From: Spirochaetota bacterium
Lineage (GTDB): Bacteria; Spirochaetota; Spirochaetia; Treponematales; Rectinemataceae
DNA: 38,224 nucleotides
Direction of reading: 5' to 3'
NCBI GenBank assembly: GCA_029265615.1
Contig: JAJUIB010000023.1
Span: 1 to 38,224 of the forward strand
The notes below the pieces were generated by a model. The model worked only from the letters and a program-made list of their open reading frames with translations, was not told the DNA's origin and searched no databases. Numbering within the stretch: the stretch's first letter is position 1; each line of letters starts with the position of its first letter. The position numbers were made by a program, and so were the translations under genes. This document shows, piece after piece, positions 2,300-38,224 of the stretch.

Positions 2300-3259
2300 A
2301 TGTCGATCACCACGAGCCAGCAGATACTGAAATGGTACGACCTCTATAAGGCGATCGACGTCACCTATACCAAGGAAATCATCAAGACGGTCGGCCTTGA
2401 CCCCCGGCACGTCTACCTCAAGTGTGTCGGGGAGCAGTGGCCCTGCGTGATTTATTCGACGTCCTTTCTGGGCGCCAAGGTCATTGCGAGCGCCAAGCCC
2501 ATCCTCAACGAGAAGATCAAGCGCGCCAACAACCTCGTTTCCCTGCGCTTCAGCTTTCTGGTCGAAGGCAAGCAGGACCCCGTGAGCTTTTTTGTGACCG
2601 GCCGCGCGACGGGCTTCTCCCCCTACACCCAATCGGGGGGTGACCTCCAGTTCATGACCATCGAATACACCCAGCGGCCGCCTGACGACCTTATCGAGAT
2701 CATGGGGCGTCTTCTCGATGCCAACATGAATTCTGCGCGGCGACGAGACGAGCGCATTTTGCTCACCCCCGATGCGATGCGCAAGCTCTGTCTCGTCTCG
2801 CGGGATACGGTGCTCTATGTTCAGGGTGTGCCGCGTAAGTGCATTTTGCGTGACCTTTCCTTTTCGGGCGCCAAGATCATCATCGTCGGTCTTGCAAAAT
2901 TCCTTGTCGGCAAAGACTGCGTCCTCCGCCTCGAGATGGAGGAGCCGCGCGAGCTCCTCGAGATACGGGGGTCCATTGTGCGCTACGAGGATGTCGAGGG
3001 CCGGAAAGACCTTGCGGCGCTTGCCTTGCGCTTTGACGAAGCCTCCATACCCATGACCTATAAGCTCCACATCAACGATTACCTCAGTCAGGTGCGCCAA
3101 TCGCGCGTTGAGGAACCCGCCGCTTCCGCCCAAGGCCCATCTGGGGCCGCAGCGTCCTCGGCGCCGCCGTCCTCGGCGCCGCCCCCAGTTTCGCCTGAGT
3201 CACGCGCATCCGCGACCGCCACACCCACTTCCTCAGGAGGAGGAGTCCCCCATGCCTAG
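2300..3259 (+). CDS. PilZ-domain c-di-GMP receptor protein
   Basis: 319 aa, cytoplasmic. The N-terminal half (about 1-135) resembles the PilZN-type domain seen before PilZ in spirochaetes. The PilZ domain (about 145-260) carries both c-di-GMP-binding motifs: R148-x3-R152 in ARRRDERI and (D/N)xSxxG as DLSFSG (185-190). Borrelia PlzA is a two-domain relative that links c-di-GMP to motility and gene expression; a similar receptor role here is inferred. The last 45 or so residues are a low-complexity Ala/Pro/Ser tail encoded partly by two perfect 15-bp repeats. The 3' end contains the ribosome site of the TPR gene and overlaps that gene by 8 nt, so the two are translationally coupled. Confidence 0.88.
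   Translation: MSITTSQQILKWYDLYKAIDVTYTKEIIKTVGLDPRHVYLKCVGEQWPCVIYSTSFLGAKVIASAKPILNEKIKRANNLVSLRFSFLVEGKQDPVSFFVTGRATGFSPYTQSGGDLQFMTIEYTQRPPDDLIEIMGRLLDANMNSARRRDERILLTPDAMRKLCLVSRDTVLYVQGVPRKCILRDLSFSGAKIIIVGLAKFLVGKDCVLRLEMEEPRELLEIRGSIVRYEDVEGRKDLAALALRFDEASIPMTYKLHINDYLSQVRQSRVEEPAASAQGPSGAAASSAPPSSAPPPVSPESRASATATPTSSGGGVPHA
3153..3182 (+). repeat. 15-bp tandem repeat x2 inside the PilZ gene
   Basis: Two perfect copies of CGTCCTCGGCGCCGC. Read in frame they encode the SSAPP pentapeptide repeat of the PilZ C-terminal tail. Nearly the same unit, on the other strand and in another frame, builds the lipoprotein signal peptide at 34981-35055. Confidence 0.85.
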
Positions 3260-27686: not shown

Positions 27687-27720
27687 ACGGCCACCATGAC
27701 GCGCCCCGGTGGCCGTAAAA
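27683..27720. repeat. Second inverted repeat sharing the terminator T-run
   Basis: TTTTACGGCCACC (27683-27695) and GGTGGCCGTAAAA (27708-27720) are a perfect 13-bp inverted repeat with a 12-nt loop. Its left arm begins in the T-run of the preceding terminator. Confidence 0.8.
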
Positions 27721-27812
27721 TGGTGATTAAAGATCCCCGATCGTCGCGACCATGACTCGTCATGGTCGCCGTGACATGGCGATCAAAGATCCCCGATCGT
27801 CGCGACCATGAC
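27693..27812. repeat. 56-bp imperfect tandem repeat reaching into the carbamoyltransferase 3' end
   Basis: Unit 1 is 27693-27748, unit 2 27749-27804, with the first 8 nt of a third to 27812. The best-matched part is 27708-27756 against 27764-27812, differing at five positions. The right copy contains the last codons and stop of the carbamoyltransferase ([12 protein letters not shown]); the left copy repeats the same codons with a TAA but out of frame. Within unit 2 GCGACCATGA and TCATGGTCGC also form a hairpin. Confidence 0.85.
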
Positions 27813-28784
27813 GGCCTTGATCGTGTGCAGGCGGTTTTCGGCCTCGTCGAAGACTTTGGAGTTCCGGGAGCGGAAGACCTCGTCGGCGACTTCCATTTCC
27901 TTGAGGCCGTACTTCTTCTGGATGTCCTTGCCCACCTCCGTCTCCGTGTCATGGAAGGCGGGGAGGCAGTGGAGAAAGAGGCAGTCGGGGTTGCCGGTCT
28001 TCTTCATAAAGTCCATCGTCACGCGGTACTTCTCAAGCTGCTTGATGCGCTCCTCGAACTTGGCCTCCTCGCCCATGGACACCCACACATCGGTGTAGAG
28101 GGCGTCGGCGCCCGCGAGGGCCTTGTCGGCATCGTCGATCGTGTAGAACTCGATCTTTCCGCCGGTTTCGGCGGCGACCGCCTTCATCTCTGCAGTGAGC
28201 TTCTCGTTCGGCCAGAGCTCCCTGGGGGCGAGGGCGACGAAGCTCATGCCCATCTTGGCCGAGCCGATCATGAGGGCGTTGCCCATGTTGTTGCGGGCAT
28301 CGCCGCAGTAGACGAGTTTGCACTTGGACAGGGGCTTTGAGACGTTTTCCTCGATGGTGAGGAGGTCGGCGAGAATCTGCGTGGGGTGATCGTCATCGGT
28401 AAGGCCGTTCCAAACAGGAACGCCCGCGAACTTAGCAAGGTCCTCGACGAGCTTCTGGGAAAAGCCGCGGTACTGGATGCCGTCATACATGCGCCCGAGG
28501 ACCTTCGCGGTGTCCTCGATGGACTCCTTTTTGCCCATCTGGGAGTTGGTGAGGAAGGTGACGTTGCCGCCCTCGTCCCAGCAGGCGGTCTCGAAGGCAC
28601 ACCGTGTGCGGGTCGATGCCTTGTCGAAAATGAGGACGATGTTCTTGCGATAGAGCAAGTTGCCCTTGATTCCCGCGCGCTTTTTGTTTTTGAGGTCGCG
28701 GGAGAGGTCGAGAAGGTAGCGGATTTCCTCGGGCGTGAAGTCCTTGAGCGTGAGGAACGAGCGTCCCTTAAGATTGATGGGCAT
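27783..28784 (-). CDS. argF: Ornithine carbamoyltransferase
   Basis: 333 aa from ATG 28782-28784 (preceded by AAGGAG). Transfers carbamoyl from carbamoyl phosphate to ornithine to give citrulline, or the reverse in the arginine deiminase pathway. Carbamoyl-phosphate motif STRTR (57-61), HPTQ in [13 protein letters not shown], ornithine-side [10 protein letters not shown] and the [22 protein letters not shown]-terminus are all intact. The N-terminus and the long C-terminal helix resemble catabolic ArcB enzymes as much as anabolic ArgF; no arcA or arcC lies nearby to decide. It has its own promoter and shares a bidirectional terminator with lacZ. An ATG 13 codons upstream is discarded because it precedes the ribosome site. 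Confidence 0.94.
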
Positions 28785-32900: not shown

Positions 32901-35132
32901 TTAGGGCGAGCCTCGCGGCCCAAATATGGCGATACGTTTGCTGTTTCCACCCGCCACCACAAGCCAATCCCCACTGAAGGCGGCGCCCGCAGCTCCTTCG
33001 AAGCTGAAGACCGGGCTTCCTGGCGCTGTGATGAGTTCTGCCAGGCTTGGGCTACCCGAGGCGGGATCGAGCGTATAGAGCGCAAGGGCACCACCTGGTG
33101 CGCCAAGGACCGCAAGGCGCGACTCGCATTCGTCGAGCTCGAGGATGCTTGCGCCAGAGGCCACATCGGGGAGGGGGTAGCCTGCGGCCGCGACAAAGGC
33201 CTCAGCTTGCGAGGCTCGACGGAGAAGGAGGATGCTCGAGCCATTACACAGAACGTAGAGTCTAAGGCCGTCCGCCGAAAGGGCGAGGGAGCCGGGTTTT
33301 GTGAGCTCTGCGCCGAGCACTGCCTGGTCGTATGTCCGTAGAAGGCTGAGTTCTCCCTCACGGCTACCGAATTCCAGGAGTCTGTTAATTCCGCTTGCGC
33401 TTGCGATAAGACTCTCAGTCCCTGCGGCGATGTCCGCAAGGCCGAGCGCCTGGCCGGGAAAGGCGAGGTCGAGGTCAAACCGTGCGACGGGCGCTGCGTC
33501 GAGGTCCGCTCCGGGCGCGGAAGCAAAGGCGTAGAGCTTTGCGGGGCTGTTTGCGAGCGCAAAGAGCCTTTCCCCCGAGGGCGAAAAGGCAAGGCCGCGG
33601 ATTTGGCTAAAGTTTGCAAGCCCCGCATCGCCCTGTTTCCGGTCGTGGTTGCGCGTGGGTATGCCTTCTTCGCCAAGCTCGATGAGGCGAAGATAGCTCG
33701 AAGCGGAGCCCGAGGCGGCAAGGAGGCGGCCATTGGGGCTTGCCGCAAGGCGATCGGCGCTTCTAGGCGTGCCCGCAACGCGGATTTCGGTGGAAAAGCC
33801 TGCAAAAAGCGCGCCCTCGCGTTCGCTAAAAAGGTGAAGCTTTGTCTCGGCATCGAGGCCTGAAACCGCAAGAAGGCGCTTTCCGCCTGAAAGGCTCACG
33901 CGCGTAACCGCTTTGACCGCCGCACCGGGGATAGGATCGCCGAGCCCCAGGGCGACGGAGCGTGGGCTGAGCGCCGCCGCGTCGTAGCTTGCAAGCCATG
34001 CGGAGCTCAGGCCGCAGGGGCCGTCAAGGCGCGTGAACCAGAGGCCGACACTCCCCGCCGCGCCCGTTTCCGGATCGTGGACCCGGGCGTCGAGCCTGAG
34101 GGGACCGCGAAGGCCGCCTTGCGGAATGACCGCGACCTCCTCGGGGATCGCGCCTTGGAGCGGCATGCCATTGAGGTAAAACGTAGCCTCTGCACCCGCC
34201 TCAAGGCCGAGAAGCGGAAGGCGCAAGGCGGCTTCGCGGTTTACAAGGCAAGGCGCCGGGAGCCGTAAGCCCGTGAGCGCGGCAAGCGGCAGAAGCCTGA
34301 GCGAAAGGCTGAGCGTTGGCTCTGCAATGTTGAGGAGGACACTTCCTGCCGTGGCGTAACCTGCGAGGATGAGGACATCCTCGGCGAGGCCCGAAAGGAC
34401 GTTTCCTTCTTTTTCGAGTCTGAGCTCAAGGATGTATCTCCCCGCCGCAAGTTCCGTAAACGCAAGGCTCCCCGCGCCGGGGTCGAGCCTTATGCCCATT
34501 TCGCGCGGCGCCTCGGTGGGTGGCCCGCTCTCCCGCATAAGCCGCCCCACAAGAACCGAACCCTCAGGCGGCGGATAAGCGTACTGCAGGTTCACGGAAA
34601 AGGATCCTGTACCGGCTAAGGGGGTAAGCGCAAGGCAGAGGGTTTTGTCGTCGCCCGCCTCGAGACGGATCGCGGCCTCGCCCCGTTCAAGGATGCCGCC
34701 AGAGGCATCGAGAGCTTCGACTACAAGGCGCCAGTCCCCGGGCTTAAACTCGATGCTCGCGCCTGGGCCTGAAAGGACGCAGGACAGGCTTTCGCCGCTC
34801 TGTTCTTGAGCCACAAGGCGAAAACTCGCAGGCACGGGACTCACCGGGGGGAGGAGGCTCCGAGCGCGCTCGTTGTGGGCGTTTTGGGGAGCTTCAGCCC
34901 GCTTCCATGCCGCGCCGCTTGAGACATCGAGCCTGAGCCGTGCTCGCCCCTCTCCGTGAGGGACAAGCGGGCCCTTGCAAGCGCCGAAAACGGCGGCGCC
35001 GAGGACCGCGGCGCCGAGGACCGCGGCGCCGAAGACGGCGGCGCCGAAGACGGCAGCGCCGAGCAGGCCTGGATGCCCCGAAACGCCATATCGCTGTGCG
35101 CTTTTGCCCCTCAGCGTAGATTCTGTGCGCAT
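32901..35132 (-). CDS. Lipoprotein with beta-propeller-like C-terminus and repeat-built signal peptide
   Basis: 743 aa from ATG 35130-35132, which has an excellent AAGGAGGTG 5 nt upstream. Residues 1-52 form a lipoprotein signal: basic start, then five GAAV(F/L) pentads and the lipobox FGAC (C52). The mature part has beta-rich, Ig-like regions (about 60-330) and a C-terminal half with repeated propeller blades of the YVTN/WD kind (RLAASPNGRLLAASGS, GLAFSPSGERLFALANS, SLALSADGLRLYVLCNG). No catalytic residues are evident. It is predicted to sit on the outer face of a membrane and to bind a partner or ligand. It is divergent from the giant adhesin, 203 nt away, so both may be controlled together. 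The family is not recognised. Confidence 0.82.
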   Translation of the reverse strand: MRTESTLRGKSAQRYGVSGHPGLLGAAVFGAAVFGAAVLGAAVLGAAVFGACKGPLVPHGEGRARLRLDVSSGAAWKRAEAPQNAHNERARSLLPPVSPVPASFRLVAQEQSGESLSCVLSGPGASIEFKPGDWRLVVEALDASGGILERGEAAIRLEAGDDKTLCLALTPLAGTGSFSVNLQYAYPPPEGSVLVGRLMRESGPPTEAPREMGIRLDPGAGSLAFTELAAGRYILELRLEKEGNVLSGLAEDVLILAGYATAGSVLLNIAEPTLSLSLRLLPLAALTGLRLPAPCLVNREAALRLPLLGLEAGAEATFYLNGMPLQGAIPEEVAVIPQGGLRGPLRLDARVHDPETGAAGSVGLWFTRLDGPCGLSSAWLASYDAAALSPRSVALGLGDPIPGAAVKAVTRVSLSGGKRLLAVSGLDAETKLHLFSEREGALFAGFSTEIRVAGTPRSADRLAASPNGRLLAASGSASSYLRLIELGEEGIPTRNHDRKQGDAGLANFSQIRGLAFSPSGERLFALANSPAKLYAFASAPGADLDAAPVARFDLDLAFPGQALGLADIAAGTESLIASASGINRLLEFGSREGELSLLRTYDQAVLGAELTKPGSLALSADGLRLYVLCNGSSILLLRRASQAEAFVAAAGYPLPDVASGASILELDECESRLAVLGAPGGALALYTLDPASGSPSLAELITAPGSPVFSFEGAAGAAFSGDWLVVAGGNSKRIAIFGPRGSP
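34981..35070 (-). repeat. 15-bp minisatellite x5 encoding the signal peptide core
   Basis: Five units from 34981 to 35055 (GCGCCGAAAACGGCG, GCGCCGAGGACCGCG twice, GCGCCGAAGACGGCG, GCGCCGAAGACGGCA) and a decayed sixth to 35070. On the coding strand they give GAAVF or GAAVL. Some adjacent units are identical, which suggests recent expansion. Confidence 0.92.
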
Positions 35133-35335
35133 GAGCACCTCCTTATCCCCCAAGGAACGCCTCCGTCTGGGCATGGCGCTTTAGGGAGGAGGCTTATGTC
35201 TTAGGGGGAAGCGGTTTAACCTCCAGGAAACAAGCACCGATAGAGAAAGATGCGGGAAGCTCTGACATGGGGATTTTTCGCGTCCACTTAGCACCGACAA
35301 GCGATATAATGAAAGGAACAGAGGAGGCTGCCTCA
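35133..35335. promoter_or_regulatory. Divergent control region of the lipoprotein and adhesin genes
   Basis: Rightward, TATAAT (35305-35310) is a consensus -10 for the adhesin; its -35 is poor, so an activator may be needed. GAGGAGG (35321-35327) is the adhesin ribosome site, and GCCTC just before the ATG can pair with it, possibly damping translation. Leftward, no clear promoter for the lipoprotein was found. GCCTCC and GGAGGC, and CCCCC and GGGGG blocks, form loose inverted repeats around 35145-35205. Confidence 0.5.
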
Positions 35336-38224
35336 ATGATCCACATCCGCGCCAATCCCGCCATCACGAGATTGTCCCTGTGCGCAAGGCCTGCCCCTCG
35401 TTTCCTGTTTATGGTGCTTGGGTTTATTGCTCTTGTTGCCGCGACCTGGCCTCAGAGCAGGATGCCTAAGGAATCTACCAACTGGCTCAGTGTCACAAGC
35501 GCGGCGGGTTTAGGCGACCACGATGGTATATTTGTAGCTTTTTTTGAGGTGCCTGATACGCTCTCAGGCCCCATCTTTTTTGCCATAAACGATCCAGGTT
35601 GTGATAATTCGACAGTCTATTCGCCTGACCTTAATAGCGGCACCACATACTTTTATCTTTTTGGCGGATCAGGTGCCCTAAGCGACTCCCGTTCGCGCCA
35701 AGTAGACTATTCAGGCGCTCCAAGTAACTCCACGGCGGCAGGAACACTTCTTTCAACAATAACTGCCAATGCGACGGCACCATTTAACGGACAGTGGGTG
35801 TATTTCACTGGCGTAGATCCTGCGGAAGGCGAGCACATCGGCAATAAGTACTATTTCCGCATCGTTGCGTATGCAAACGGCCAGGCGGGGAACTATAAAA
35901 ACGCTTTCCAGATCGACGCATCTCTCGGCAATACAGGCACTCCCACGGGGATTAGCGGTGTCCGCTCATTTGCGTTTAATTGGTCTGTTGTATTTCAGAA
36001 TACCAACACTTGGAACCTTTATCCCTTTGTCCCCGATGGCACAACAGGCAATTTCGACTTTTATAGCTGGGACATGGATTCAGGTGAGACGACGACGGGA
36101 CCTGTGCTTAAGGACATTGCGGGAGATACTCGTCTTAACGATGCAGCGACGAGTGGTGAAGGAACGAGCTATACCTATGGCACAGTAAACTCGAATCTCG
36201 TTAATCAAATATCTGTCGCACAGACAGCGATTTCCGACGGTGACGGCGACACCGCCGATGATAGCAACGGAACCTGGCAGCTTGTAGTTACCGAGGATAG
36301 TGCAGGGGGGGCGGGGGACAACAACCCTGCGGAGCTCTGGTTTGGCCAATATAATGGGACTTCAATTTTTAGAATCTATGCAGACCACTATGTGCCGCCC
36401 CCAGCAGATCATGTTGTCATATCCTTACAAGATGGGCTTGCCCGCGCCGATGGAACCGATACTGAAACGGTAACGCTCCAGCTCGTTGATGCAAGTGGAA
36501 ACCCCGTGCCCTATGTCAGGAAAATATACGTCACGGTATCAGGATCGGCGATCATCACGCCGGACACGCTCCCTGTTCAAGGCAATGCCGAGCTTCTTAC
36601 AACAAATGGCGATGGCTTTGTAAGCTTTACGATAAAAAACAGTACAGCGGAAACGGTGACTATAAGCCTTGAAACCGATGGCACGTCGGGGGCATACTCA
36701 GGCGATGATCTCTTACCCGGCGAGAACGCCAATGAAACAAAACAGGTCGTTTTTTCAACCCTGACGCCGCCGACCCTGGTCTCGCAGGCAAACAGCACGC
36801 TCAACATCAACACAGCCACAGCTGGCCCTCTTGCAAATATCGTTATCACCGAAAAAGAAGCGGGTAATATCACCGCTTCAAATGATATACGCATTCGCCT
36901 TCCTGCATCGCTTTCTGACACCTATTTTGACACCACGGCTTCAGTTACCGCCGTTGCGACCGATTCAAACGGCGGGACGGGAGGCACATCGTCGGTTAGT
37001 GCAACGGTGAGCTATGAAGGAGGAACCGGCACCGAGAAGGTTCTTGTGGTGACCGTGAATGCCGATGGAGATCCTGATGCCGGTGATTTTGATGCCAATA
37101 GTTATGTGACGATCTCCGGCGTCCGGCTCAAAACCGGTTCCGTCCAGGGATCTGGGCGGCTTTCGCTTTCGGTGGACGGCGGTACGAGCTATCCCGTGCT
37201 TGATACCAAGCTTATAACAGTTACCGATACGAGCGCACATATTTGGTACGGAACAGTAAGTAGCGACTGGAACAATCCTGGTAACTGGAACCTGGGCTCC
37301 GTGCCGGGCAATGGTGCTGCAGTCGTTATAAAACCCGCCGCGAATCAGCCAGCGCTTTCCGCAAACACCGCGAACCTTGCATCTCTTATTATTGAGACAG
37401 GTACGACGCTTACGGCCAATTCATATGCTATTTCGGTTACAGGGGATTTACGTTTGGCGGGAACGCTTGTGTCAAATGCGGCCATTACAGTGGACGGATC
37501 TCTTTTTTATAATGGGGGAAGCATTACCGCCAATGGATCGACTATCACGATAGCTGGCAACATCGTCATTGCCGATGGGGTGAACGCAACTATTAGCACC
37601 GACGCAGGAGTAGGTGGTGACGTACTCATTGGTGGCACTATCAATGGAACCACAGGAGGCGCTCAGGAGTACCTTACCATCAACGCAGGGACAGGAAAGG
37701 TGAGCATTGGAGGCGCAGTCGGCGTGAGCGCTGCGCTTGCAAGCATATCTGTGACTTCTACGAATACTGACCTTGATGCGATTACGATACAGAGCGTGAC
37801 GACAACGGGAAGTCAGACCTATACGGGGAATGTGGTGCTGGGAGCGGACACGACGCTCGATGCGGGAACTGGGAACATAACGCTAGGTGGTACGGTCAAC
37901 GCTGACAATGCCACCAATAATCGGACGCTGACGCTGAACAGTACGGGAACGACGACGATAGGTGGAGTGATAGGAGGAAGCCAATCCTTACTCAGCCTCA
38001 CTACTAACGTAGGAGGTACGACGCAGATTAATGGTGGTACTGTTACCACCACAGGGGCGCAGACATACAACGATGCGGTGGTGCTGGGTGCGAATACGAC
38101 GCTCGATGCGGGAACTGGGAACATAACGCTAGGTAGTACGGTCAACGCTGACAATGCCACCAATAATCGGACGCTGACGCTGAACAGTACGGGAACGACG
38201 ACGATAGGTGGAGTGGTAGGAGGA
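35336..38224 (+). CDS. Giant repeat surface adhesin, 3' end outside the window
   Basis: 963 codons without a stop, cut by the window edge. ATG 35336 follows GAGGAGG by 8 nt. A signal or anchor segment (about 22-38, RFLFMVLGFIALVAATW) leads into a beta-rich N-terminal region (to about 355). Next is a Big-1/invasin-type Ig-like domain (about 360-450: VVISLQDGLARADGTDTETV, LQLVDASGNPVP, TNGDGFVSFTI), a further beta domain (470-630), the motif SSDWNNPGNWNLGSVPGNG (about 643-661), and then short-period beta-strand repeats rich in Thr, Gly, Asn. From residue 821 these become an 82-residue unit repeated almost exactly. This is the pattern of filamentous-haemagglutinin-like adhesins. Codons such as ACA, ATA and GTA are much commoner than in the neighbours, suggesting horizontal origin or relaxed composition. 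Confidence 0.85.
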   Translation, partial: MIHIRANPAITRLSLCARPAPRFLFMVLGFIALVAATWPQSRMPKESTNWLSVTSAAGLGDHDGIFVAFFEVPDTLSGPIFFAINDPGCDNSTVYSPDLNSGTTYFYLFGGSGALSDSRSRQVDYSGAPSNSTAAGTLLSTITANATAPFNGQWVYFTGVDPAEGEHIGNKYYFRIVAYANGQAGNYKNAFQIDASLGNTGTPTGISGVRSFAFNWSVVFQNTNTWNLYPFVPDGTTGNFDFYSWDMDSGETTTGPVLKDIAGDTRLNDAATSGEGTSYTYGTVNSNLVNQISVAQTAISDGDGDTADDSNGTWQLVVTEDSAGGAGDNNPAELWFGQYNGTSIFRIYADHYVPPPADHVVISLQDGLARADGTDTETVTLQLVDASGNPVPYVRKIYVTVSGSAIITPDTLPVQGNAELLTTNGDGFVSFTIKNSTAETVTISLETDGTSGAYSGDDLLPGENANETKQVVFSTLTPPTLVSQANSTLNINTATAGPLANIVITEKEAGNITASNDIRIRLPASLSDTYFDTTASVTAVATDSNGGTGGTSSVSATVSYEGGTGTEKVLVVTVNADGDPDAGDFDANSYVTISGVRLKTGSVQGSGRLSLSVDGGTSYPVLDTKLITVTDTSAHIWYGTVSSDWNNPGNWNLGSVPGNGAAVVIKPAANQPALSANTANLASLIIETGTTLTANSYAISVTGDLRLAGTLVSNAAITVDGSLFYNGGSITANGSTITIAGNIVIADGVNATISTDAGVGGDVLIGGTINGTTGGAQEYLTINAGTGKVSIGGAVGVSAALASISVTSTNTDLDAITIQSVTTTGSQTYTGNVVLGADTTLDAGTGNITLGGTVNADNATNNRTLTLNSTGTTTIGGVIGGSQSLLSLTTNVGGTTQINGGTVTTTGAQTYNDAVVLGANTTLDAGTGNITLGSTVNADNATNNRTLTLNSTGTTTIGGVVGG
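37796..38224 (+). repeat. 246-bp near-identical tandem repeat inside the adhesin
   Basis: Unit 1 is 37796-38041; unit 2 starts at 38042 and is cut at 183 nt. From 37850/38096 onward the copies differ at only two positions, while the first 54 nt of the unit are more variable. The unit is 82 codons, so copy changes keep the frame. More copies probably follow beyond the window. Confidence 0.9.

Follow-up and report, generated by a model that had tools for sequence, protein, structure and literature searches.

How does a bacterial lipoprotein come to have a signal peptide whose hydrophobic core is little more than one pentapeptide written five times over, and would the number of copies matter to the cell? 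The question is raised by a gene within a stretch of 38,224 nucleotides (positions 1-38224 of contig 12; hereafter the window), from a genome of 2.70 Mb with a G+C content of 63.5% in the stretches sampled. An earlier note on this DNA saw in the repeat a possible device for switching or tuning export. I argue below that the switch is impossible, that tuning is unlikely, and that a history of duplication probably accounts for the repeat.

The signal peptide and its array

The features of the window needed for the argument are these:

32901..35132, minus strand: gene for a lipoprotein of 743 amino acids, with a signal peptide, N-terminal beta domains and a C-terminal beta-propeller
35138..35144, minus strand: strong Shine-Dalgarno sequence AAGGAGG, as read from the sequence, 5 bases upstream of the ATG at 35132
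34977..35132, minus strand: predicted signal peptide, MRTESTLRGKSAQRYGVSGHPGLL(GAAV[F/L])5GA plus the lipobox cysteine, Cys52
34981..35062, minus strand: tandem array of 15-bp units, coding for the hydrophobic core
34977..34988, minus strand: lipobox F-G-A-C, made of the end of the last unit plus TGC, from the sequence and the alignment described below

Residues 1-52 of the protein read MRTESTLRGKSAQRYGVSGHPGLLGAAVFGAAVFGAAVLGAAVLGAAVFGAC. Tandem Repeats Finder (TRF) gives the array 5.5 copies with 91% matches and a score of 122, and on the minus strand its units are GGCGCTGCCGTCTTC, GGCGCCGCCGTCTTC, GGCGCCGCGGTCCTC twice and GGCGCCGCCGTTTTC, followed by GGCGCT TGC. The translation, GAAVF GAAVF GAAVL GAAVL GAAVF GA-C, bears out the earlier note's description of a core of five GAAV(F/L) pentads ending in the lipobox FGAC. 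The span that it marked, 34981-35132, is that of the signal peptide up to the start codon, while the repeat itself ends at 35062. The array is a minisatellite by structure only, that is, a tandem array of similar units.

The units differ at just four of their 15 positions, three of them silent third bases and the fourth a T/C difference between Phe and Leu codons, which is what one would expect had hydrophobicity been maintained after the duplications. Only units 3 and 4 match each other exactly. The outer GGCGCT sequences, first and last, differ from the inner GGCGCC, a pattern that would fit growth of the array from the inside. The lipobox residues just before the cysteine stand at the end of every unit, and because of this units can be gained or lost without harm to the lipobox or the cleavage site. 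Nor can such a change shift the frame, since 15 bp is exactly five codons. The earlier note was right that gain or loss of units within this coding region keeps the frame, and the same arithmetic rules out its suggestion of on/off switching, as in classical phase variation, from an array that lies inside the coding region.

An antisense open reading frame (34956-35204) that overlaps the array was rejected as mechanical and without support, and the predicted mRNA fold of the 5' region is no better than that of its own shuffles (z -0.31). The divergent gene at 35337-38224 on the plus strand is long, probably encodes a secreted product, runs off the window and has near-identical repeats toward the window's end (about 37840-38224). 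A 56-bp repeat of 2.2 copies lies at 27693-27813.

As for the protein that the signal would deliver, a Pfam search returned only a sub-threshold WD40 match, and the pentapeptide-repeat family model did not match. The AlphaFold2 model (mean pLDDT 72.9) consists of N-terminal beta domains and then repeated beta-sheets. The PDB structures that match this C-terminal part are WD40 and lactonase-type beta-propellers, for example 7qdr_C and the phosphogluconolactonase 6nau_A.

Length and hydrophobicity of the core

The earlier note judged the core to be about twice the normal length, and the comparison agrees. The uncharged run before the cysteine is 31 residues long, against 12-17 in ten plausible lipoproteins from 438 kb of the same genome, where a few looser matches on the list are unlikely to be lipoproteins. 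In the fourteen homologues with a recognized lipobox it is 12-18. These fourteen belong to a set of sixteen from genomes of the same family, aligned with the window protein at 20-28% identity. A single-protein scan of the genome collection found no relatives, and the same-genus genome G001 shows no orthologue. None of the sixteen homologues has pentad repeats, their signals being ordinary, and the alignment shows the array as an insertion directly preceding the invariant cysteine. The array must therefore have expanded, and the expansion is, to judge from this alignment, lineage-specific.

In other respects the signal resembles those handled by Sec and signal peptidase II (SPII). It has a positively charged n-region, a hydrophobic core running directly to the cysteine, small residues before it, and a cysteine at the cleavage site that is invariant across 17 aligned sequences (the window protein and the 16 homologues). 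It departs from the usual type in its doubled core, in the tandem pentads and in Phe at position -3, which falls outside the strict E. coli lipobox, [LVI][ASTVI][GAS]C. The homologues are also relaxed at that position (W-G-C in L007), and I take the window protein to have a predicted Sec/SPII lipoprotein signal, with the phenylalanine as a point that speaks against it.

I propose, with a probability of about 0.6, that this is an ordinary Sec/SPII signal whose core was rebuilt as a 15-bp unit was duplicated again and again in frame, by replication slippage or unequal recombination. GAAV[F/L] is only weakly hydrophobic, and length would compensate for the low density of hydrophobic residues, about three units sufficing to reach the hydropathy of the relatives. 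Since each unit supplies the residues just before the lipidated cysteine, the lipobox would survive at any unit number. If this is right, then export should cross a threshold at about two to three units and level off beyond, extra units should be nearly neutral, their number should drift by slippage, and the signal should work at its length of 31 residues.

Calculated hydropathy, a proxy for export, behaves in this way. Taken over 19 residues, the best Kyte-Doolittle mean for one to six units is 0.96, 1.59, 2.08, 2.22, 2.27 and 2.33, a steep rise from one unit to three and a flat course thereafter, and the cores of the homologues fall between 1.64 and 2.79. Because the plateau begins at about three units, small changes around five should do little. 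On this modeling, loss of several units should weaken export and gain of one should hardly matter. On the biological insertion scale, also a proxy, the core is weaker than those of all the relatives at every length tried, and its insertion energy is weak, near zero.

A core so long could act instead as a poorly cleaved membrane anchor, which is a further counterpoint to the proposal besides the phenylalanine. On that account the length has been kept for an uncleaved or slowly cleaved anchor and not for a normal signal. Thirty-one uncharged residues would be long enough to span the membrane, as would the single continuous helix of 25 residues (26-50) that AlphaFold2 predicts at low confidence, a helix that also agrees with the account of a long signal core. 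But the cysteine is kept, the homologues look like ordinary lipoproteins, and the calculated insertion energy is weak. I consider an anchor very unlikely.

The unit elsewhere in this genome and others

The pentad is not confined to one gene, and two further features enter here:

3153..3183 of the window, plus strand: two copies of the array's 15-bp unit in another frame (97% over 30 bp), in the SSAPPSSAPP tail of a PilZ-like protein
G000 contig C25, L050:648-1253, minus strand: second pentad lipoprotein, P0002, 201 amino acids, unrelated to the window protein

A GntR-like regulator (G000 contig C28:58964-59014) also has the unit, in another phase, in its tail, which reads GSAENGGAENGGAEG. The PilZ-like and GntR-like labels are my presumption from reading the sequence only. 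The same or a similar unit is thus found in two protein tails and the signal of P0002, in three reading phases, and one might suppose it to be a DNA element able to start arrays in many genes, in any frame. Under an order-5 Markov model, an exact match to the 21-base word consisting of the unit plus flank is expected 0.008 times per genome, and the array word with at most one mismatch 0.26 times, versus two seen outside the array. Two matches in G001 lie in true 15-bp arrays. Against this, most of the G001 matches are ordinary Ala/Val-rich coding sequence, and several other GC-rich genomes of the order contain the word, with at most two mismatches, about as often (33 matches in G001 and 20 in each of G002, G032 and G043). 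GC-rich codon use therefore explains much of the pattern. A mobile or dispersed repeat family is unproven, and I regard an element of this kind as highly improbable.

Better supported is a general tendency of this genome toward 15-bp duplication. In 438 kb (twenty 20-kb stretches plus the window) there are 44 tandem arrays, and 15 bp is the commonest period (11 of the 44), as would suit such a tendency, though coding constraint and the TRF thresholds favor periods of this sort. Markov sequences of the same composition and extent gave 7 arrays (order 2) and 2 (order 5), with a 15-bp period in 1 and 0, respectively. A hairpin plan common to the 15-bp units was considered and rejected, since it is not clearly present in the genome's other arrays. 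Two instances of the period may be recorded in passing: a duplication in the apparent Rossmann motif of an FAD oxidoreductase (G000 contig C5:132358-132388; AVIGAAVIGAGPAG) and a perfect C-terminal array of 4.9 copies in an ABC-transporter-like protein (L066:13225-13297; APHGAT repeats).

Signals made of pentads are rare. The motif (GAA-x-[L/F])2-G-x-C, in short form (GAAxx)2Gx-Cys, occurs twice in this genome. A scan of 392 other genomes of the phylum gave no match, and one of about 85,000 species gave six, four of which resemble export or lipoprotein signals and have two or three units. The remaining two are unlikely genes, one of them a six-unit GAATF array in Comamonas that is probably coding in another frame, and in none of the six do four or more units stand in a plausible lipoprotein. 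The second occurrence here is P0002, whose signal, KHGAAILGAAILGAAALGSC, contains three pentads (GAAILGAAILGAAALGSC); the signal of its L092 homologue was not recoverable. (Contig C25 begins with 94 consecutive C, positions 1-94 of L050, probably an artefact of assembly.) Two pentad signals in one small genome, versus about one per 14,000 genomes elsewhere, are unlikely to be chance, even as GC-rich composition raises the background. A second lipoprotein of the same construction counts in favor of a core rebuilt by duplication.

Repeat length in known signal peptides

Slipped-strand, phase-variable surface genes are an obvious comparison. In them, too, a gene whose product is exported has a short tandem repeat close to its 5' end. 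In such loci the units within coding regions usually shift the frame and turn expression on or off, which a 15-bp unit cannot do.

Closer parallels are human. The signal peptide of carnosinase-1, encoded by CNDP1, contains a (CTG)n repeat, and five leucines lead to less secretion than six or seven (PMC13116943). PCSK9 has a variable (CTG)n leucine repeat in its signal core, for which a tuning role has been suggested (PMC2034530), and the APOB signal has an insertion/deletion of Leu-Ala-Leu (PMC4201729). Short repeats of order-promoting residues in human proteins are mostly located in signal peptides (PMC9581044). CNDP1 shares with the window gene a tandem repeat inside the signal core whose in-frame changes alter the core's length, but its signal is a eukaryotic ER signal with a 3-bp unit, varying among people, whereas here a bacterial lipoprotein has a 15-bp unit in one genome. 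PCSK9 and APOB likewise differ in core length, in frame, between species or individuals. They are eukaryotic, with a homopolymer or a change of a single unit and no lipobox, where the present signal joins a 15-bp array to a lipobox. No example of repeat-length tuning of a bacterial lipoprotein signal was found in the literature searched, a search from which subscription journals were largely absent.

Might the unit number, then, change often and set the amount of lipoprotein in the envelope, giving a mixed population with no on/off switching? This is what survives of the earlier note's reading of phase or dosage variation. An in-frame array does sit in the core, each unit regenerates the lipobox, CNDP1 offers a precedent, and the same genome has a second pentad signal. 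Because units 3 and 4 do not differ, the last duplication may have taken place recently. However, no other units are identical, which means that turnover is not extremely rapid; the predicted hydropathy is flat above three units; and there is no sign of selection for variation. I judge dosage variation unlikely. Bolder still is the idea that 15-bp minisatellites in at least two lipoprotein cores serve as heritable length dials that set the amount exported, a graded and frame-preserving alternative to phase variation; I would count that quite improbable.

Nature has here supplied a core that consists of a single pentad repeated, and with it a ready means of testing the trade-off between length and hydrophobicity in lipoprotein export. 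Should the unit number vary naturally, the bacterial array would parallel the signal-repeat polymorphism of human CNDP1, and its variation would be of a graded sort that escapes scans for phase variation based on frame.
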